Shown here: positions 358-20,035 of the stretch, in pieces
How the letters are laid out: each line of letters starts with the position of its first letter
Numbering within the stretch: position 1 is the stretch's first letter
IMG/VR virus record: IMGVR_UViG_3300049595_001385
Coordinates: 1-20,035 of that record
DNA from: a virus
Length of the DNA: 20,035 nucleotides
Strand: one strand, 5' to 3'
Position numbers and translations under genes: made by a program
Notes under the pieces: generated by a model
The model's input: only the letters and a program-made list of their open reading frames with translations
The model's database searches: none
Told to the model about the DNA's origin: nothing

Positions 358-828
358 TTAGAGTCCAGACAATCTAATGACTTCATCCAATTCTTCTTTG
401 CTGTTTGCATTCATTAGTCTTTGCATAATGTCTCCGTTGTGTTCTGGTGATACACCAGAGTCTGCGGAGTTTGTCATACGCTTATATGCTGCAGCATCGT
501 TTGGATTTACATTAGGTGTTGCCTGGGTTTGGCTTGTTTCAATACCGAATACATCGGCATAGTCTTCAAGCCATTTAGATACAGACTCTTCAGTTGGGTC
601 TATATCCTGTGGGATAAATGAAGCAATTTTGCTGTTTACCCCGCGACTTGCGAGGGCATCCTTTATTGCTCGTTCGCGCTGCGACTTGTTCAAAGACTCA
701 AACTGAGCACGAAGCTCATTTAGTTCTTTGTCTTTTTGCTTAGACGCTTTGCGTAGTTGCTTTACTAGGTCGTTAGATGAGTCATTCATATCGAAGTCGT
801 CATCATCCTCGTAGTCGTAATTGGACAT
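358..828 (-). CDS. Scaffolding-like protein, acidic coiled coil (156 aa)
   Basis: Probably a capsid scaffolding protein, which would chaperone assembly of the capsid protein encoded next. The N-terminus is extremely acidic (MSNYDYEDDDDFDMNDSSND). Residues about 21-60 are rich in Lys/Glu/Leu/Gln (KQLRKASKQKDKELNELRAQ) and should form a coiled coil. A conserved-looking helix follows (ALASRGVNSKIASFIPQDID, then WLEDYADVFG), then a Thr/Asn/Pro-rich linker and a short C-terminal helix (ELDEVIRLSGL). Acidic head, central coiled coil, length near 150 aa and position immediately upstream of the capsid gene all match scaffold genes of tailed phages. Start ATG has AGAAGGA about 6 bases upstream. No enzymatic motif is visible. 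An unrelated head protein remains possible. Confidence 0.68.
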   Translation of the reverse strand: MSNYDYEDDDDFDMNDSSNDLVKQLRKASKQKDKELNELRAQFESLNKSQRERAIKDALASRGVNSKIASFIPQDIDPTEESVSKWLEDYADVFGIETSQTQATPNVNPNDAAAYKRMTNSADSGVSPEHNGDIMQRLMNANSKEELDEVIRLSGL

Positions 829-3868: not shown

Positions 3869-4683
3869 TACTTACCTCCCAATGCACTAAACATCCAGCT
3901 TGTAAAATCAACACGCTCTTTACGTGCCACATCTTCTGGTGTTGCTTTACGAATAGCCTTCTCTGCAGTAGCAGCAACTTGTTCTTCTGAATAACCAGGA
4001 GTAGTTATAGCTACTGATTCTGTTTTTCCAGTCTTAGGATTAAACTTCTTTGATGTAGTTCTGACAGAACCAGTATCAATCATTTTGTCAATAGATGCTT
4101 TAAGATCTATGTACCACTTTTGAGTTTTGTCTTCTTCTGTAATGTCTTGACCACGAAGAGATTGAGATACTTTGTTAATCATTGCTAAACGATCTGCTTC
4201 AGTTTTGTCATAGATCTCACGCTGTGGCAATGCGGCTGCTTTTGCTGCAGCATCTGCAATGTTTGCAGTCTTTGCTGTTGAGCGAAGGAAGTCTTCGATA
4301 CTCATAGTCTTGACTATTGGGTCTGTTGAGTAGAAGATGTTTTCAGCTAAACGACTAACCCAAGCACCAAGAGTATTAGGATCGTTGATGTTTTTTCCTG
4401 ATGCCGCTTTTACTAAACCTTTAATTGAGTTGTAAGCCTTTGGGTTGGTCTTTGAAAGGGTAACAATGTATGGAGCAATTTTAACTGGAGCAAGGCTTAG
4501 ATCTTTTTTATCTTGGTCTTTGATGCCAAATCCAAGAAGCAAGCCAATGTTGCTTTGGTTACCTGTGCTATTGCCAAATGCAAAAGTAGGTTTTGGTGAT
4601 GTGTTATCGCCAGCTTTGTATGGATTACCCTTACCATCTGGTGTCCAGGTCCACTTGCCTTTTTCGTCTTTACTCCAAGACAT
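3868..4683 (-). CDS. Virion-module protein of unknown function (271 aa)
   Basis: Not recognised. The start ATG overlaps the TAA of the giant protein gene and the stop overlaps the ATG of the next gene, both as TAATG, so the three genes are very likely translated as a coupled set. The N-terminal 30 residues are polar and Trp/Lys/Gly-rich (MSWSKDEKGKWTWTPDGKGN), probably flexible. The rest is mainly helical, with a Ala-rich helix (IADAAAKAAALPQREIYDKT) and a C-terminal end FTSWMFSALGGK. No catalytic motif or membrane segment is evident. A virion-associated role is inferred from position only. Confidence 0.72.
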   Translation of the reverse strand: MSWSKDEKGKWTWTPDGKGNPYKAGDNTSPKPTFAFGNSTGNQSNIGLLLGFGIKDQDKKDLSLAPVKIAPYIVTLSKTNPKAYNSIKGLVKAASGKNINDPNTLGAWVSRLAENIFYSTDPIVKTMSIEDFLRSTAKTANIADAAAKAAALPQREIYDKTEADRLAMINKVSQSLRGQDITEEDKTQKWYIDLKASIDKMIDTGSVRTTSKKFNPKTGKTESVAITTPGYSEEQVAATAEKAIRKATPEDVARKERVDFTSWMFSALGGK

Positions 4684-7600
4684 TAGTCAATCACCTCATA
4701 GTTGTCGTTTTCTAAGTAACGTGTGTAGAAATCACCGAATCCATTATCCCATAACTTCATCTGCAAAATGTAACCTTCCCAAGCATCTTTGAGATCAGCG
4801 TTAGATGGATCTGAAAGACCTTGTGTACCTAGATTTGCTTTACGGTTTGCAAGTTCACGAGCCAAGTAATCACGATTAAGAACATAATCAGAAACTGCCT
4901 GCATTGTATTTGTTTTACCGTACTGACCCATCCACTTTTTGTCTTGAGTTATCTTAAGAAGACCTTGGACATAGCGTTTGGTTTTTGTAAAATCACCTAC
5001 AGAATTGTCGTAAGCCTTTGACCAAGCTGGCAGATAATCTTTGATAGATTGAACTGCTTGCTCCCAAGCATCTGCAATTCCTAACTGTCGAGCAGCATTT
5101 GAATTAACACTTTTAATTCCATACTGAGCAAGAGCAGCATCGCGTTGCTTTGAAAACTTTTCGTAGTAGTTCCAACCAAGACTTTCTTGACGGTCAACTA
5201 AGATGTCTTCAGTAGCACGACGCTCAGTGTACTTAATCTGTCCACCAGGACGAACTGATCTATCACGGAAATAGTTAGCCGCTGCCTCTGAATACTTATC
5301 TTGATTGTTACCAAAGTTGGCAATAAATCCAACTAAACCTGGAGTGTTCAGTTTATCCATTTCGCCAAGCAGGGAATTGTACTTGCGCTGGTTTACTACG
5401 GCACCTGATGTGGTTAGTAAGTTAGTTGTATTCTTGCTAGTAGGTGCTGTGATAATGTATCCAATATCACCGTACTTACCAAAGATGTAATCGTCAACCT
5501 TTGTTTTGCCAACCTTTGGGTCTTGCAAAGCACGACGGTAGTCATCCATAATAAGTTGCCACTCAGGGCGGAATGTAAATGTAAATGGCAATGACATATT
5601 AACAGCAATACGAATTTTGTACATTTGCTGTGCTAGTTTAATAGCATCTGAGAAATCAGGCTGTGGACCTTGACGTCCATTTTGATCCCACTCAAAGTAT
5701 TGAGTTTTCATAGCACTAGCAACAGTGCTTGAAAAAGTTGTATCGTCTAAACCACTTTGTAATGCGGCGTACTTTTGTCCTGCTGCTGGTAGCAATAGTT
5801 TCCAAGGATCTGCTGCTGCTTTACCAAATGGTAAAATGCTATTCATAATAACGTTAGCTGTTGTTTCACCAGTAAATTCTGTTAGAAACTTTTTAACATT
5901 TTCAACGCGATCTGGACGATTGTTAGCAATCATTGATACAGGAATAGTTACAGGTAGTCCAAATGATGGAGCAAGAGGATTTTCTCCTGTAAGAAATACG
6001 TTAAGGCTGTTCTTAGGGATAGAGATTTGATATCCCTTTGGAATGCCCCAACGTCCTTGTACACCTTCTGGAATTGTAAATAATAGATACTGCTGTACAG
6101 AAGGCGGTGTTCCTGTAGGAACTTCCTGACCTTCTTGATCTACTACTGTAGCGATACGGTTAGGAAGATTCCAGATCTGTGAAGCACGAGCAATACGTGA
6201 AGGATCTTGGATAAAGAATTTTCCATAGACCTTTACTGCATTGTACTGTGCGTTAAAGAATGGAACCAAGAAACGCATAGTGGTTGAGAGACCAGTGTTA
6301 TTTGTCATACGATATAGAACATCGTTAACAGTTTTGCGTGACTGTCCGTGTGCACTACGCTGTAACTGAATAATCAATTCAGGGTCTTGAAGGTTTTTGC
6401 CTAATCTTTCTGCAATATCAATTTCAAGCTGGAGGTTCTTCTTGTAAAGGTTTTCATAGAAAGGCCAAGATACAAGATTGTTTTCAGGTGTAGAACCAAT
6501 AGCCTTAAAGACTCCTGAGATAGCAGTATTGATAGTACTCTTGATAACTCCCTTGTCATAACGCAGTGTGTCATCAACAAAAGAACGACCAGCAATAGGT
6601 GCAAGATTTGGAGTTCCACGCATTAAGGCGTCAAACTGCTCTGGGTTCAACTCTTCACGTGCAACAAGTGCACGCATCTGTTGATCTGGAAATAGTTTAT
6701 AGATACGAGAGCGTGCTTCTGAAACGTGAGATCTGATTTGGTCTTTAGCAATATCCGCATTGATTTCACGTAAGTAGAACTGGCCTTCCTTACGCAACCA
6801 TCCAGCAATCTCACTATCACCTTGTCCTTGTAGAATACGCATAGCAAGTTGATCCTGGCGCAAGATGCGGTTAGTAAATACTGACATCTCATTAAAGTAT
6901 TGAGGATCGGTAGGTTGAACCACTGTACGAGCTTCGCTTAATTTTCCTGCGTAACTACGAGACTCAATACCCTTCATAGCATCGTATGAAAGATAAGTCT
7001 GTCCTTCTGTCATCCAGTTAAGCGTGTTATCGCTAGCTGCATCTTGACGATGCAAGATACCGTTAGGACCTGCAAACGCTCCATCAGCTTCAATCTTTGC
7101 ACCAGATGGTGTTGTATAAAGGTCTCGCCCTTCACCTGAACGAACAATCTTAAGTTCAGAACGACGTGCTGCTAACTTCTGTGATTGAAGAATTCTGTCA
7201 AGAATTTCATTGTCATACTTATCAACCATATCTTGGTAAGTACGAATACGGTTCATCTGTTGCTCACCAAGAAGTTCAGCAATATCTTCATAGTTCATTC
7301 CCTTAGAAATTTCGTATGAAGTAATAACGCGGATATCAGGTTGCTCGATTGGACCTTTAGCACGCATCTTAAACTTACCAGATGCTTCTAGTTCATCTGC
7401 TAAAATTGAAGAAGGTAAACCCTTACGTGTTTGGATATCTGGAATTGCACCCTTTGGCAAACGACCTTGTGTTCCAGGTACTTTATAGAAAACTTTTCCA
7501 CTAGGAAAATCTGCATATACTAAAGTTGTGCCTTTAGGAAGATTTGGAACTATCTCCTGACGTACATACTGACCATAAGCCTTAGCCTGTATGTCCTTAA

Positions 7601-9905
7601 ACTTGTCTCTGTCAGCACCAAACAAAAGACCCTTTTGATCTTTTTGTTTCTTGCTTAATGCAAAGTAAGCATCACGTTGTTTCTGTGTGAGTAAAGGCTT
7701 TGTGTTAGAGGCAAGAGCAAGCTCAACCATTCCTGGATCAACTGGCTTGCCAAACGTACCTGCAGCACCAGCGTAATACTGTGTAGGTGTAATCTCATTT
7801 AAGATACTGGTACGTACATCAATAGTTTGGCTGCGCTGAGTAACTAGTTTACCAATTTGATCGCGTAGTTGACTTGGGTTTTCTAAACCTAGTGTTTCTT
7901 CAAAGAAATTTGTAGCCTTAGTAGCACGAGTCTTTACATTAGATGCTAGATTTTTAATAGAATTATCTGTCTTAGCAAGAGAACCTAGAGCTAATGCTGC
8001 ACGAAGTTGACCGTCAATTGTATTACGGATTGGGTAACCCATACGTGTAAGTACAGAAGCCTTAAATAGAGAGTTTGCAAAGTCCAGCATATCTTCTACT
8101 TCACCAGCTGCTTGACGTGCTTTAAGTGCTGCTTCTGTAGCCTTTTCTCCCAAAGGGCGAACCTGCTTATAGATTTTAAGAAACTTATCAAAGTCCTTAA
8201 AGTCCATCATAGGAACTACGTTAGGCATTTCAGATTTCCAGAAAGGAGAAGTGACTAGCTTCTCTGCTTCGTCTACCCAAAAGCCGTGTTGTGAGAAACT
8301 GTCCATCATTCCACGACGAACGTTTCCATAAACCTTGTACCAGCGTTGTGCTTCCTCAATGGTCAAATCGTTTTCAAGCGCAATGATGTCTGCAATTTCG
8401 CTTTCAATGTTTTCAACTGCAGTCATACGCTCAGTAGCGTTACGTGCATTCATATAATCTCTAGCGAGTTCGTTTTTTGTCTCGATATACTTCATATCAC
8501 GCAATGGCTTAACAGAATTAAGCGCATATTTAATTTCATTGTATGAATCTGCTACAGGACCACCGTCAATACGTACAATTCCACGTGGTAATTTGTTAAA
8601 TGCTGCTTGGATGACTACAACGGGACGAGTATATGGAGACTTTTGGAATGTCTCTGTGTAAAAACTGAAGTCGTGGTACAGATCAGATGCTTTAGCACGA
8701 GCCTTTTCAATGGCTACGCCGATATTCTTGTTAAATAGGTTAACGTCAGCTGCTGATGTGTACTCATTGATGACTCGATAGTCACCAATGCGCTCAGACA
8801 TAGCTCGTTCTAGGTTAGCATCGCGTACTTTAAGATCGTCAAGGACTCTGCTTAGGCGATCATACTCTTGAACTGTAGGAAGATGCTGTTCAATGTTAAC
8901 TCCTGTACCCCACTCAATAGTGTTGTACCGCTTTTGAATAGGATCAAAAATATCTTGAGAGCGTTGAATCTCATCAGCAATAGATGCACGAGTAGCTGCA
9001 ATCTTATCTAGTGAATTTGTATCACCAGCTGCTGCTGCAATAAAGTTTGCTACATCATCGTAAGTTTTTGCTTCACCAACAAGACCTGCCATTAAAACTG
9101 GATTAGTTGTATTTCTGATAAATACGTCATCGTATGCCTCTGCAGCATTCTTGCCAACTAGACGTTGAGCAACAACACCCATTGGTGTTTCTCTACCAAC
9201 AACACCATTAGATTTAACATACATACTGTGAATATCAAGCTCTGAGCGTAGACGAACGATATCTTCCGCAGATTCAATAGGGCGAATAAGGCCAGATAAA
9301 CGAGCAACCTTAAGGCCCTTGCCTCCAATAACTAATGGATCTGCAAACCAGTTAAGAAGACCGTCAACACCACCACTTGAAAGTTGTCCAAAAACGTTAT
9401 CTACAAATGTTTTCTTACGATCTGATGGTGAGGCAATGTTAAAATCAGGATTAAACAGTTCTACTATAGGTGCAACAAATGCCTGTCCTGGGCTAACTTG
9501 CTTTGCAAGTTTCCAGTTTTCTAGTAAATTAAGACCTTCACCAGCAATAAAATCTGCGTTAGAAAGAAGAGCCGTACTAACAGGTTGAGATACTTTTGGG
9601 TATGCCCATTGGTAGAATTCATCTACCTCTTTCATACCAAGGTTAAATACAGTATCTAAACGTGCAACCTCTGCTGGCTTAGTAACAACATCAACTGCTG
9701 TGCTAGCCATATTATTAGCAATATCTCCAATAATACGCTTAGGCTTATTTGCAATGTTAGAAACATTTGCACCAGGAGCTAACTGACTTGCTTGCTTTTG
9801 AGCAAGACCGCCAGCAAGAGAAATACCTGCTTGTGGAACCGCGCCAACTGCGTTGCCAACAGCACCACTAACTGCCTTTTTAATAATGTCCCAATAGTTA
9901 GCCAC
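4683..9905 (-). CDS. Giant virion protein, internal/ejection- or polyvalent-like (1740 aa)
   Basis: The largest gene in the window. It starts at GTG (9905-9903) with GGGAGG seven bases upstream. No single catalytic motif is obvious. Residues 10-45 are Gly/Ala-rich and hydrophobic (AVSGAVGNAVGAVPQAGISL) and could be membrane-active. Further blocks are FNPDFN...NWFADPLVIGGKG (151-197), a helix-rich core to about 600, LFKASVLTRMGYPIRNTIDG near 610-630, and TMRFLVPFFNAQYNAVKVYG near 1200-1220. The last block, with F-x-PFFNA-x-x-N, resembles a segment common in very large phage polyvalent or inner virion proteins. The C-terminal 400 residues are Trp/Tyr/Asp-rich helices. Placement between portal and scaffold/capsid favours an injected or portal-vertex protein; a tape measure usually lies after the capsid gene. 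Function is inferred. Confidence 0.75.
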   Translation of the reverse strand: MANYWDIIKKAVSGAVGNAVGAVPQAGISLAGGLAQKQASQLAPGANVSNIANKPKRIIGDIANNMASTAVDVVTKPAEVARLDTVFNLGMKEVDEFYQWAYPKVSQPVSTALLSNADFIAGEGLNLLENWKLAKQVSPGQAFVAPIVELFNPDFNIASPSDRKKTFVDNVFGQLSSGGVDGLLNWFADPLVIGGKGLKVARLSGLIRPIESAEDIVRLRSELDIHSMYVKSNGVVGRETPMGVVAQRLVGKNAAEAYDDVFIRNTTNPVLMAGLVGEAKTYDDVANFIAAAAGDTNSLDKIAATRASIADEIQRSQDIFDPIQKRYNTIEWGTGVNIEQHLPTVQEYDRLSRVLDDLKVRDANLERAMSERIGDYRVINEYTSAADVNLFNKNIGVAIEKARAKASDLYHDFSFYTETFQKSPYTRPVVVIQAAFNKLPRGIVRIDGGPVADSYNEIKYALNSVKPLRDMKYIETKNELARDYMNARNATERMTAVENIESEIADIIALENDLTIEEAQRWYKVYGNVRRGMMDSFSQHGFWVDEAEKLVTSPFWKSEMPNVVPMMDFKDFDKFLKIYKQVRPLGEKATEAALKARQAAGEVEDMLDFANSLFKASVLTRMGYPIRNTIDGQLRAALALGSLAKTDNSIKNLASNVKTRATKATNFFEETLGLENPSQLRDQIGKLVTQRSQTIDVRTSILNEITPTQYYAGAAGTFGKPVDPGMVELALASNTKPLLTQKQRDAYFALSKKQKDQKGLLFGADRDKFKDIQAKAYGQYVRQEIVPNLPKGTTLVYADFPSGKVFYKVPGTQGRLPKGAIPDIQTRKGLPSSILADELEASGKFKMRAKGPIEQPDIRVITSYEISKGMNYEDIAELLGEQQMNRIRTYQDMVDKYDNEILDRILQSQKLAARRSELKIVRSGEGRDLYTTPSGAKIEADGAFAGPNGILHRQDAASDNTLNWMTEGQTYLSYDAMKGIESRSYAGKLSEARTVVQPTDPQYFNEMSVFTNRILRQDQLAMRILQGQGDSEIAGWLRKEGQFYLREINADIAKDQIRSHVSEARSRIYKLFPDQQMRALVAREELNPEQFDALMRGTPNLAPIAGRSFVDDTLRYDKGVIKSTINTAISGVFKAIGSTPENNLVSWPFYENLYKKNLQLEIDIAERLGKNLQDPELIIQLQRSAHGQSRKTVNDVLYRMTNNTGLSTTMRFLVPFFNAQYNAVKVYGKFFIQDPSRIARASQIWNLPNRIATVVDQEGQEVPTGTPPSVQQYLLFTIPEGVQGRWGIPKGYQISIPKNSLNVFLTGENPLAPSFGLPVTIPVSMIANNRPDRVENVKKFLTEFTGETTANVIMNSILPFGKAAADPWKLLLPAAGQKYAALQSGLDDTTFSSTVASAMKTQYFEWDQNGRQGPQPDFSDAIKLAQQMYKIRIAVNMSLPFTFTFRPEWQLIMDDYRRALQDPKVGKTKVDDYIFGKYGDIGYIITAPTSKNTTNLLTTSGAVVNQRKYNSLLGEMDKLNTPGLVGFIANFGNNQDKYSEAAANYFRDRSVRPGGQIKYTERRATEDILVDRQESLGWNYYEKFSKQRDAALAQYGIKSVNSNAARQLGIADAWEQAVQSIKDYLPAWSKAYDNSVGDFTKTKRYVQGLLKITQDKKWMGQYGKTNTMQAVSDYVLNRDYLARELANRKANLGTQGLSDPSNADLKDAWEGYILQMKLWDNGFGDFYTRYLENDNYEVID

Positions 9906-16741: not shown

Positions 16742-17359
16742 ATGAATAAAGTAATGGATAACAAGATCATCACGGCGGGCGAGAGCCTTAACAATTTAGA
16801 GCTTGCGGGCGATCAATTGTTAGAGCTATTGGAGGGCGTGAGCACGCACGCGGGGCGCGATAAGTCACTCCCTACGCTTAACGCGGTAGAGATAGAGGGC
16901 GGGGGCGGGCTATTAGTTGCACGCGCTACCGATAGATACCGACTAATTGAGGGAGGGGCGAGAGCGTTAGACGGTAGCTTAGATAAGGCTCTTATCTCAC
17001 TAGAGGACATCAAGCGCGTAATTGCATTAGCTAAGGCGCATAAGGCTCACCGTATCGGGCTTACCCGTATCGCTAACGCTCTAACCGTGAGCGCACTAGG
17101 CGATAGCCTTACCGTGACACTATTAGAGGGAAAGTTTCCACCTACGGCGGATCTATTCGCTAAGAGCGAGGGCGAGCCTAGCGCGGTAGAGGGCGTAGCC
17201 TTTAACCCCGCTCTAATGGCAGACTATGCCAAGATCGCGGGCAAGGGCGCAGCTATTAAGATTTACTTTACGGGCGACGGCAAGCCTATGCGTGTACGCA
17301 TTACAAGCGACACTATCAATTGGAGAGCCTTGCTTATGCCTATGCGCTATCAAGATTAG
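16742..17359 (+). CDS. Short DnaN-like sliding clamp (205 aa)
   Basis: Probably a processivity clamp that encircles DNA and tethers a polymerase. It has beta-clamp signatures in order: PTLNAVEIEG then LLVARATDRYRL (44-68; compare the 'lVATDghRLa' motif of DnaN), a helix ISLEDIKRVIALAKA, the strand-turn LLEGKFPP (127-134; the clamp 'G-x-[FY]-P' motif), FNPALMADYAKI (154-165), and a C-terminal LLMPMR (197-202), like the VMPMRL end of bacterial clamps. Length is well under the roughly 370 residues of a three-domain clamp, so about two domains' worth is present. Start ATG 16742 follows AAGGG; ATG 16754 is possible. Codons are GCG/CTA-rich. Phage DnaN-like proteins are known; the oligomeric form is unknown. 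Confidence 0.75.
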   Translation: MNKVMDNKIITAGESLNNLELAGDQLLELLEGVSTHAGRDKSLPTLNAVEIEGGGGLLVARATDRYRLIEGGARALDGSLDKALISLEDIKRVIALAKAHKAHRIGLTRIANALTVSALGDSLTVTLLEGKFPPTADLFAKSEGEPSAVEGVAFNPALMADYAKIAGKGAAIKIYFTGDGKPMRVRITSDTINWRALLMPMRYQD

Positions 17360-18504: not shown

Positions 18505-18667
18505 AGAGGTTGAGTTAGAGTACACCGTCTATAACCTTGTGAGGTTATCGGAGAAGGTATGGGGAGAGAACGCTACTGAGTACCTTGCAGGTAGGTTAGA
18601 GAGTGTCATCACCTATAAGCAGATGAAGGTTCTAATTGATAGTCTTAAGGAGGAAGCGAGTGAGTAA
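18494..18667 (+). CDS. Small helical protein (57 aa)
   Basis: ATG 18494 lies 8 bases after GAGGGAGA. The product MTIKEVELEYTVYNLVRLSE, then KVWGENATEYLAGRLESVIT and YKQMKVLIDSLKEEASE is three predicted helices with a conserved-looking W...EYLAG centre. Function unknown. Its stop lies just past the start of the next gene (8-base overlap). Confidence 0.65.
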   Translation: MTIKEVELEYTVYNLVRLSEKVWGENATEYLAGRLESVITYKQMKVLIDSLKEEASE

Positions 18668-18902
18668 CATCTACACCATACACCCCAAGAAGTCGGACTT
18701 AATCCTATTCTATGAGGTGCTTACACCTGAGGGAGAGAACGAGTGGGGCGGGGCTAACGCTGAGCAGTGCATACAATGGCTAAGCCTTGCACCTAGTGGC
18801 AGTCGTGTGCTGGTATCTGCCTGGGATAGTGATGAGGAGGACGCTCACCTAGTAGGGCAGACCTTAGACATCACCGAGATAGTAAGGGCAGCGAGCTTAT
18901 GA
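18660..18902 (+). CDS. Small acidic protein of unknown function (80 aa)
   Basis: I choose GTG 18660 over the earlier ATG 18636, because AAGGAGG (18647-18653) sits 6 bases before it, the best Shine-Dalgarno in the right arm. The protein begins SNIYTIHPKKSDLILFYEVL and shows AEQCIQWLSLAPSGSRVLVS followed by AWDSDEEDAHLVGQTLDITE, an alternating helix/strand pattern. This layout is common in small phage proteins of unknown function. The stop overlaps the next ATG (ATGA). Confidence 0.72.
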   Translation: MSNIYTIHPKKSDLILFYEVLTPEGENEWGGANAEQCIQWLSLAPSGSRVLVSAWDSDEEDAHLVGQTLDITEIVRAASL

Positions 18903-18982
18903 TGTACTGGTTAGGGATAGCTGCGGTAATGCTGGTAGTCTATGGGCTTATAGTGTGGGAGGACAAGATCAATGGAGAGTAA
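18899..18982 (+). CDS. Membrane micro-protein (27 aa)
   Basis: ATGATG at 18899 overlaps the previous TGA. The product MMYWLGIAAVMLVVYGLIVW, then EDKINGE is a single membrane helix with an acidic tail. The ribosome-binding site (AAGGG, about 13 bases away) is weak, so translation is probably by coupling. It ends inside the next gene. Short, so not certain. Confidence 0.48.
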   Translation: MMYWLGIAAVMLVVYGLIVWEDKINGE

Positions 18983-19262
18983 GGAAGTCAGCGGTAAGCA
19001 AGCAATTCACTATCGAAACTACAGACGAGCAAGAGATCGTGCGCTAGTGCGCCTGTCTCACCTCTATCCCAACGTGTATAGAGACTTGTTAGCGGAGGAG
19101 AAGGACAATGACCAGACAGAAGGTAAGAATTGGGTTGCTAGTAATACCCGTGTTAGCGTTACTTTGGGTGTTCGCTCCCGACCAACGCGCAGTAAAGGGA
19201 GAGTTTCCAAGCGACCTAAGCGTGGTCGCAAGAACAAAGGCAACAATGGAGGAAAAGCGTGA
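18972..19262 (+). CDS. Basic-tailed protein of unknown function (96 aa)
   Basis: ATG 18972 overlaps the micro-protein's end. The N-terminal half is a charged helix pair, HYRNYRRARDRALVRLSHLY then PNVYRDLLAEEKDND; the C-terminal third is Arg/Lys/Gly-rich (RSKGRVSKRPKRGRKNKGNN), likely disordered and nucleic-acid-binding. From 19108 on the same bases also encode the transglycosylase N-terminus in another frame. The stop TGA overlaps a GTG that opens a further frame. The N-terminal half has the look of a conserved small phage family; no function known. Confidence 0.66.
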   Translation: MESKEVSGKQAIHYRNYRRARDRALVRLSHLYPNVYRDLLAEEKDNDQTEGKNWVASNTRVSVTLGVRSRPTRSKGRVSKRPKRGRKNKGNNGGKA

Positions 19263-19533
19263 GAACAAGGCACTTGCAGTTAGTTACGCACGAGCACTCG
19301 GTTACAATCAAAACCAAATCAGATGTCTTGTCACCTTATGGACCCGTGAGAGCAGGTTTGACCACCTCGCAGACAACCCAAGAAGTACAGCTTTCGGAAT
19401 TGCTCAACTCCTTAGAGAGCGTAGTGGAGAGCCTGAACTACAAGTCCTTCACGGCTTACGATACCTTGGTCACCGCTATGGAGGGAGTGCGTGTCGCGCT
19501 CTCCAACATAGCAACAGACGAGGTTGGTACTGA
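19108..19533 (+). CDS. Membrane-anchored lytic transglycosylase, SLT-like (141 aa)
   Basis: Probably cleaves peptidoglycan glycan strands. Residues 7-23 (RIGLLVIPVLALLWVFA) form a signal anchor or signal peptide. A linker leads to an SLT-type domain: ALAVSYARALGYNQNQIRCL, then LWTRESRFDHLADNPRSTAF with probable catalytic Glu 81, GIAQLL (97-102) and HGLRYLGHRYGGSACRAL. The WT-x-ES...A-x-N..S.A.GIAQLL pattern is the family hallmark. It ends at RRGWY, normal for compact phage or actinobacterial members. ATG 19108 follows GGAGGAGAAGGA. Nearly the whole gene overlaps two other open frames. It could serve lysis or entry; lying in the early-gene arm rather than by tail genes, the timing is unclear. 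Confidence 0.82.
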   Translation: MTRQKVRIGLLVIPVLALLWVFAPDQRAVKGEFPSDLSVVARTKATMEEKRENKALAVSYARALGYNQNQIRCLVTLWTRESRFDHLADNPRSTAFGIAQLLRERSGEPELQVLHGLRYLGHRYGGSACRALQHSNRRGWY

Positions 19534-19546
19534 TGAGACTACTTGA
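19259..19546 (+). CDS. Overlapping reading frame, possible 95-aa protein nested in the transglycosylase gene
   Basis: Opens at GTG 19259, overlapping the TGA of the 96-aa gene (GTGA), with GGAGGAAAA just upstream, an architecture identical to accepted genes here. It runs 95 codons in a different frame from the transglycosylase and ends 13 bases beyond it, inside the methyltransferase start. The C-terminal half reads like a soluble helical protein (VQLSELLNSLESVVESLNYK, then TAYDTLVTAMEGVRVALSNI). The N-terminal 30 residues are less convincing. No family recognised. It may be real dual coding or a fortuitous open frame. Confidence 0.42.
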   Translation: MRTRHLQLVTHEHSVTIKTKSDVLSPYGPVRAGLTTSQTTQEVQLSELLNSLESVVESLNYKSFTAYDTLVTAMEGVRVALSNIATDEVGTDETT

Positions 19547-20035
19547 TCTTTACTGCAAGGCTGGAGGAGCGAGCAAAGGATACGCTGATGCTGGCTTTGA
19601 GGTTACTGGTATTGACATCAAGAAGCAGAAGCGTTACCCATTTACTTTTATACAGGCAGACTGCTTTGAGATACTGCAAGACCTAGATTACTTGCGTACC
19701 TTTGATGTGATTGCAGCTAGCCCACCGTGTCAGACACACTCACGCACTCAGCATTTACGTAATGCTCAGGGCAAGAGCACGGACAAGGTTGATCTGATAC
19801 CGCAGACAAGAGAGGCATTGATCGCAAGCGGTAAGCCTTATGTGATTGAGAACGTGCCAGGTGCACCACTGATTAACCCAGTACAATTCTGTGGCTCATC
19901 ATTTGATTTGAAGGTACGCAGACATAGACTCTTTGAGTCTAACCTGCAACTAACAGGTTCAGTATGTGACCACAAGAAGCAGGGAAAGCCAGTAGGTATC
20001 TACGGATCTATGCGTGATGAGATCCCTGGGGGGGG
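19533..20035 (+). CDS. Cytosine-C5 DNA methyltransferase (N-terminal 167 residues; 3' end outside window)
   Basis: Transfers a methyl group from S-adenosylmethionine to cytosine C5 in DNA; phages use such enzymes against host restriction or for regulation. The ATG overlaps the previous TGA (TGATG). Motif I is LDLYCKAGGASKGYADAGFE (4-23), where FSG-x-GG is usual; motif IV is ASPPCQTHSRTQ with catalytic Cys 66; motif VI is the ENV of VIENVPGAP (106-108); motif VIII is RRHRLFES (129-136). The frame is open at the window end, where the last eight bases are all G and encode the Gly-Gly of EIPGG. Target-recognition and C-terminal motifs are not visible. Confidence 0.9.
   Translation, partial: MRLLDLYCKAGGASKGYADAGFEVTGIDIKKQKRYPFTFIQADCFEILQDLDYLRTFDVIAASPPCQTHSRTQHLRNAQGKSTDKVDLIPQTREALIASGKPYVIENVPGAPLINPVQFCGSSFDLKVRRHRLFESNLQLTGSVCDHKKQGKPVGIYGSMRDEIPGG

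Follow-up and report, generated by a model that had tools for sequence, protein, structure and literature searches.

Two out-of-frame reading frames, very probably overprinted genes, together span the full length of a phage lytic-transglycosylase-like gene

In the window (the whole 20,035-nt stretch of viral DNA that was analyzed), a gene for a lytic-transglycosylase-like enzyme (SLT) is overlapped along its full length by two other reading frames, ORF96 and ORF95, and comparison with related sequences indicates that both are very probably real protein-coding genes overprinted on SLT. A sequence-only reading had weighed dual coding against a fortuitous open frame, and the openness of both frames in 178 relatives supports dual coding for each of them. 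The elements of the locus are as follows.

18899-18982 (+): ORF of a 27-aa micropeptide with a single transmembrane segment; 11-nt overlap with the ORF96 start
18958-18962 (+): Shine-Dalgarno sequence GGAGG of ORF96
18972-19262 (+): ORF96, 96 aa, ATG start, frame 3; predicted helical N-terminal domain and low-complexity tail over the SLT N terminus
19094-19098 (+): Shine-Dalgarno sequence GGAGG of SLT, inside ORF96
19108-19533 (+): SLT, 141 aa, ATG start, frame 1; putative membrane-anchored or secreted lytic-transglycosylase-like enzyme
19248-19256 (+): GGAGGAAAA, segment carrying the ORF95 Shine-Dalgarno sequence, 5' of the GTG
19248-19252 (+): Shine-Dalgarno sequence GGAGG of ORF95, 6 nt 5' of the GTG, inside SLT codons M-E-E and ORF96 codons
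19259-19262 (+): GTGA stop/start junction (RTGA type) from ORF96 to ORF95, used by all three frames
19259-19546 (+): ORF95, 95 aa, GTG start, frame 2, the +1 frame of SLT; putative overprinted orphan gene
19533-20033 (+): 5' part of a DNA cytosine methyltransferase gene, continuing beyond the window end

As seen, ORF96 covers SLT positions 19108 to 19262 (155 nt) and ORF95 covers positions 19259 to 19533 (275 nt); the outer ORFs overlap each other by the GTGA, and each SLT base also lies within a second ORF. Residues 1 to 45 of ORF96 are outside the SLT overlap. The chain of overlaps extends both ways, to the 27-aa ORF upstream and to the methyltransferase downstream, whose ATG (19533) shares bases with the SLT stop (TGATG) and which overlaps the end of ORF95 by 14 nt. 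The sequence-only reading had placed the three ORFs in the three forward frames and joined the outer two by GTGA, pointing to the sequence before the GTG, all of which was correct; it had called SLT "almost wholly" overlapped, and the overlap stands while the "almost" falls, the coverage being complete.

The SLT protein carries an N-terminal hydrophobic segment, a candidate catalytic glutamate, E81 (ESRFDHLADN), and a GIAQ motif. It matched the transglycosylase family PHROG 12661 (E 6.8e-13) and annotated Streptomyces phage transglycosylases. No match over the cut-off was obtained for the window protein with Pfam SLT (PF01464), and an SLT of an outgroup phage gave a Pfam SLT match below the cut-off (E 4.8e-5). 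In the cross-clade alignment, the catalytic Glu and the G-I-Q columns were invariant. The protein had previously been judged a convincing transglycosylase by motif, and these matches bear this out, suggesting a lytic-transglycosylase-like enzyme in which E81 is the candidate catalytic residue.

To estimate the openness expected by chance, the SLT protein of the window (sequence L001) was repeatedly back-translated with codons sampled from the phage's own usage. Of these draws, 3.4% left the +1 frame open downstream from the junction and 3.0% left the +2 frame open upstream of it. For a single genome, the openness of the extra frames is thus suggestive, not decisive, and with a chance of about 3% the window alone left room for a fortuitous ORF95; over the set of relatives described below, the arrangement goes far past chance expectation.

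Relatives were collected from IMG/VR by pattern-based scans with SLT, ORF95, ORF96 and divergent members, keeping the best 80 loci per query. Two of the scans matched 565 and 553 stretches; the survey accordingly samples the group, and its related sequences are not independent of one another. The main survey comprised 231 non-redundant SLT cores, 178 with the triple overlap and 53 without it. Both extra frames were uninterrupted in all 178 sampled relatives, three of which end at contig edges and are open to there (contig-edge cases L068, L298 and L357 were set aside), whereas the alternative frame has stops in 53/53 outgroup SLT genes. Homologues with a broken ORF95 or distal ORF96 frame and an intact SLT had been named beforehand as the refuting case, and none was found among the 178 sampled relatives. 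In one genome (G006), a stop flagged inside ORF95 turned out to be where a 92-aa variant of the protein normally ends. The outgroup consists of Streptomyces phages, the isolated Planktophila phage LanE43-AprF5 (OX376641; PMC10202952) and its metagenomic kin, and the overlapped tips were monophyletic in the protein tree (134/134, support 0.81). In the ORF96 scan, which was checked apart, SLT was present in 80/80 loci listed and an ORF95 match lay in the SLT +1 frame in 78 of them, the other two being short contig ends. No ORF95 away from SLT was found in the IMG/VR loci listed. Among the relatives, ORF95 nearly always ends 4 to 25 nt beyond the SLT stop, which is where the following gene of the window begins. 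In two loci (L272 and L377), an extension of about 25 residues gives ORF95 a CxxC...CxxC tail beyond the SLT stop, which may reflect fusion to a small zinc-ribbon-like segment.

Stop-making codons were strongly avoided in SLT where it overlaps ORF95. NTA codons (Leu, Val or Ile codons ending in TA) before A or G, which would create a stop in ORF95, were found in 0/917 tips and 0/33 inferred changes, versus 234/696 tips and 93/102 inferred changes where they are harmless (Fisher P ~1e-23 on parsimony events). In the outgroup SLT, such codons accounted for 104 of 212 in the stop context, and four control gene families showed no avoidance of stop-making codons. Two stop-making codons in 1,545 did occur in a second alignment of the overlapped clade, whose start is set at 98 codons from the end of SLT in every sequence; as none of the 178 frames is interrupted after the junction, both must precede it. 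Similarly, in the ORF96 overlap, NNT codons before AA, AG or GA numbered 0/317 versus 116/1421.

Selection was also evident beyond the openness of the frames. Where SLT overlaps ORF96, its second codon position, the wobble position of ORF96, was more variable than the first (0.147 versus 0.066), unlike in controls, and NN/NS was 0.36 to 0.46 versus about 1.1 or more in controls. For ORF95, NN/NS was 0.67 to 0.74, no different from the +1 frames of control genes (0.70 to 0.76; 0.93 for the N-terminal part of ORF96), and it was therefore not counted; SN/SS was 0.34 to 0.39 versus 0.55 to 0.88 in controls. Conservation at synonymous sites of homologues had been put forward as a check, and at similar protein identity the synonymous diversity of 4-fold and 6-fold columns was about halved (0.27 and 0.33, versus 0.51 and 0.63 in the outgroup), with 11/39 such columns nearly invariant in the overlapped clade versus 0/25 in the outgroup. 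In the ORF95 overlap, this constraint was concentrated at a conserved helix motif, ELLNSLE, and at invariant residues. Moreover, changes synonymous in SLT altered the overlapping proteins more conservatively than expected (t = 3.1 for ORF95, t = 6.9 for ORF96), and control genes showed no excess of conservative changes; for ORF95, this excess and the SN/SS ratio count as support. The results for one control gene set (L001_7) were odd, as though a wrong frame had been read, and later tests were run without it. In sequence L001, the frame at 539-791 (+) and its homologues showed own-frame variation highest at codon position 1 and lowest at position 2; it looks fortuitous, and the true gene probably lies in another frame or strand. 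Overall, the alternative frames over SLT are conserved open and there is selection beyond that on the older frame, as is required of overprinted genes.

The junction of ORF96 and ORF95 is, in our reading of the alignments, the most telling part of the evidence. The ORF96 stop and the ORF95 start form [A/G]TGA in 176/177 complete relatives, the remaining one (L303) having TAATG. The SLT codon at this site is mostly CGT, elsewhere AGT, AAT, GAT, GGT or TAT, so that the SLT residue varies among R, S, N, D, G and Y, while the RTG start joined to the ORF96 stop is constant. It is shifted 2 codons upstream in one branch (L176, L180 and kin), where the start is ATG and the old site is lost. The SLT glutamate codon beneath the ORF95 Shine-Dalgarno sequence is GAG in 123/128 overlapped loci versus 9/37 in the outgroup, and GGAGG is conserved in GTG-type junctions. 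ORF96 and ORF95 thus combine overlapping stop and start codons with a conserved Shine-Dalgarno sequence, as expected of an RTGA-coupled pair.

Structure prediction for ORF95 gave a disordered N terminus and one 52-residue helix (residues 36 to 87), with pLDDT above 90 at about residues 41 to 80; its hydrophobic spacing, judged by eye, matches that of a coiled coil. The ELLNSLE motif and the invariant residues are conserved across clades, and the N-terminal third is variable. Inspection of the alignment revealed no signal sequence or lipobox in ORF95. For ORF96, a weak model predicted a helical hairpin (residues 8 to 50), and the tail overlapping SLT was predicted to be mostly disordered. The two proteins, P95 and P96, gave only chance-level matches in Pfam, PHROGs, PDB and 50,697 annotated phage records, the weak matches to PHROG 6727 and 15749 being left out of account, and P95 was not found in bacterial and archaeal genomes. 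Probably, then, at least two protein families without a match in Pfam, PHROGs or these phage records have been overlooked. The upstream micropeptide, whose frame is absent from the ORF list, has one transmembrane segment (MMYWLGIAAVMLVVYGLIVWEDKINGE), is conserved in 73/78 relatives and is tied to its neighbours by short overlaps; it is possibly holin-like or regulatory.

WhiB, a mark of actinophages (PMC10202952), was present in all nine records tested, namely, eight overlapped contigs of 38 to 41 kb and the Planktophila phage, suggesting that this large clade of freshwater phages probably infects Actinobacteria. In the Planktophila phage (OX376641, L082; 2400-2890, compared with window positions 18660-18902), a WhiB gene stands in place of the micropeptide and ORF96, and the preceding gene resembles, by eye, the 88-aa gene of the window; the locus may thus be syntenic. 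Elsewhere in the window, a 1740-aa protein at 4683-9905 (-), matching PHROG 10618 of unassigned function, is probably a large internal virion protein, and a 205-aa protein at 16742-17359 (+) is weakly similar to a DNA polymerase sliding clamp. Amidase_2, M23 and GH25 domains were absent from all nine records, and a CHAP/NlpC-type domain was found in one, the other eight being without CHAP or NlpC/P60. Since these other hydrolase domains are missing in 8/9 records, most of them probably rely on SLT as their murein hydrolase.

With regard to function rather than coding, the locus might form a dedicated lysis cassette of a holin-like peptide, an SLT endolysin, and ORF95 and ORF96 as timing factors. 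This is a possibility that we hold only tentatively: the transmembrane micropeptide of most relatives and the candidacy of SLT as lysin in the eight records are consistent with it, but the cassette lies among replication-type genes beside a methyltransferase, away from structural genes, and in Streptomyces phages the homologous genes have thymidylate synthase or glycosyltransferase genes nearby. A second alternative concerns ORF95 itself, which could be translated only as a conduit bringing ribosomes from ORF96 to the start of the next gene, so that its openness and start are under selection and its protein sequence is not. The end of ORF95 just past the SLT stop, where the next gene starts in the window, and its variable, predicted disordered N-terminal third would fit such a role, but the motif and invariant residues shared across clades, the synonymous constraint concentrated there, the bias toward conservative replacements and the confident helix prediction make it improbable. 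A reading in which SLT, and perhaps ORF96, is a true gene and ORF95 owes its openness to the amino acid and codon make-up of SLT, as the 3% chance in a single sequence and the uninformative NN/NS ratio would allow, is very improbable and was rejected given the lack of stops in 178 sampled relatives versus stops in all 53 outgroup genes, the stop avoidance with its internal control, and the RTGA and Shine-Dalgarno sequence kept while SLT residues change.

Under the preferred reading of two overprinted genes, an ancestral SLT gene would have had no overlap. In one WhiB-bearing lineage, the upstream gene would have come to continue into the region coding for the SLT N terminus, where it would encode a disordered tail, and ORF95 would have originated as an overprinted gene in the +1 frame of the region for the catalytic domain. 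SLT would initiate from its own Shine-Dalgarno sequence inside ORF96 on a single polycistronic mRNA, and ribosomes terminating ORF96 at the TGA would restart at the overlapping RTG, aided by the embedded GGAGG, to make ORF95. Translation in vivo, the coupling and a link of P95 and P96 to the enzyme are what we infer from these features. The likeliest function of P95, which we propose with some reserve, would be that of a partner or regulator of the transglycosylase: a small, probably coiled-coil protein made in step with the enzyme and modulating it or the host envelope during lysis. A more speculative and rather unlikely version is that the lysis enzyme is double-coded with two small proteins of its own control circuit, P95 being a new coiled-coil control protein; if true, synthesis of enzyme and regulator would be linked, and the enzyme gene could hardly be lost or swapped.

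Long out-of-frame overlaps have seldom been demonstrated in tailed double-stranded DNA phages, and no published account of the present arrangement was found in the part of the literature covered. In this case, two coupled genes span an enzyme gene from start to stop in a widespread environmental group, and the outgroup cleanly lacks the overlap, so that the system allows direct study of gene birth by overprinting and of its cost to the enzyme.

The Rz and Rz1 spanin genes of phage lambda, one nested out of frame, share with this locus the out-of-frame overlap, a tailed phage and a lysis or envelope theme. The nested Rz1-type gene encodes a lipoprotein with a lipobox, and the outer gene encodes a transmembrane protein with a periplasmic coiled coil. 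By contrast, the SLT locus has no lipoprotein signal or spanin features, ORF95 being without a lipobox and the outer gene being the SLT enzyme; its likely hosts are Gram positive, and two tandem genes jointly cover the whole enzyme gene. The analogy with Rz/Rz1 drawn in the sequence-only reading thus holds for an out-of-frame overlap with a lysis theme and fails for the protein features, as that reading itself said. The D/E and A/B/K/C overlaps of phiX174, a small single-stranded DNA phage under strong size limits, are likewise out-of-frame overprintings on older genes with three frames used locally, but here the phage is tailed, with double-stranded DNA and contigs of about 40 kb, and the older frame is an enzyme gene. 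The SLT genes of LanE43-AprF5 (OX376641) and of Streptomyces phages (PHROG 15428 and 12661) are homologous, with the same catalytic motifs and 46% and ~35% identity, respectively; however, these genes are not overlapped: the alternative frames of OX376641 and its kin have stops, ORF95 and ORF96 are lacking, and WhiB or other genes lie upstream. Finally, the 4-nt ATGA/GTGA overlap is a common junction type in phages, and viral +1 overlaps have a median of 14 nt (PMC8903798). The ORF96-ORF95 junction is of this common 4-nt type, but the pair sits over a third complete gene, with a +1 overlap of 275 nt.
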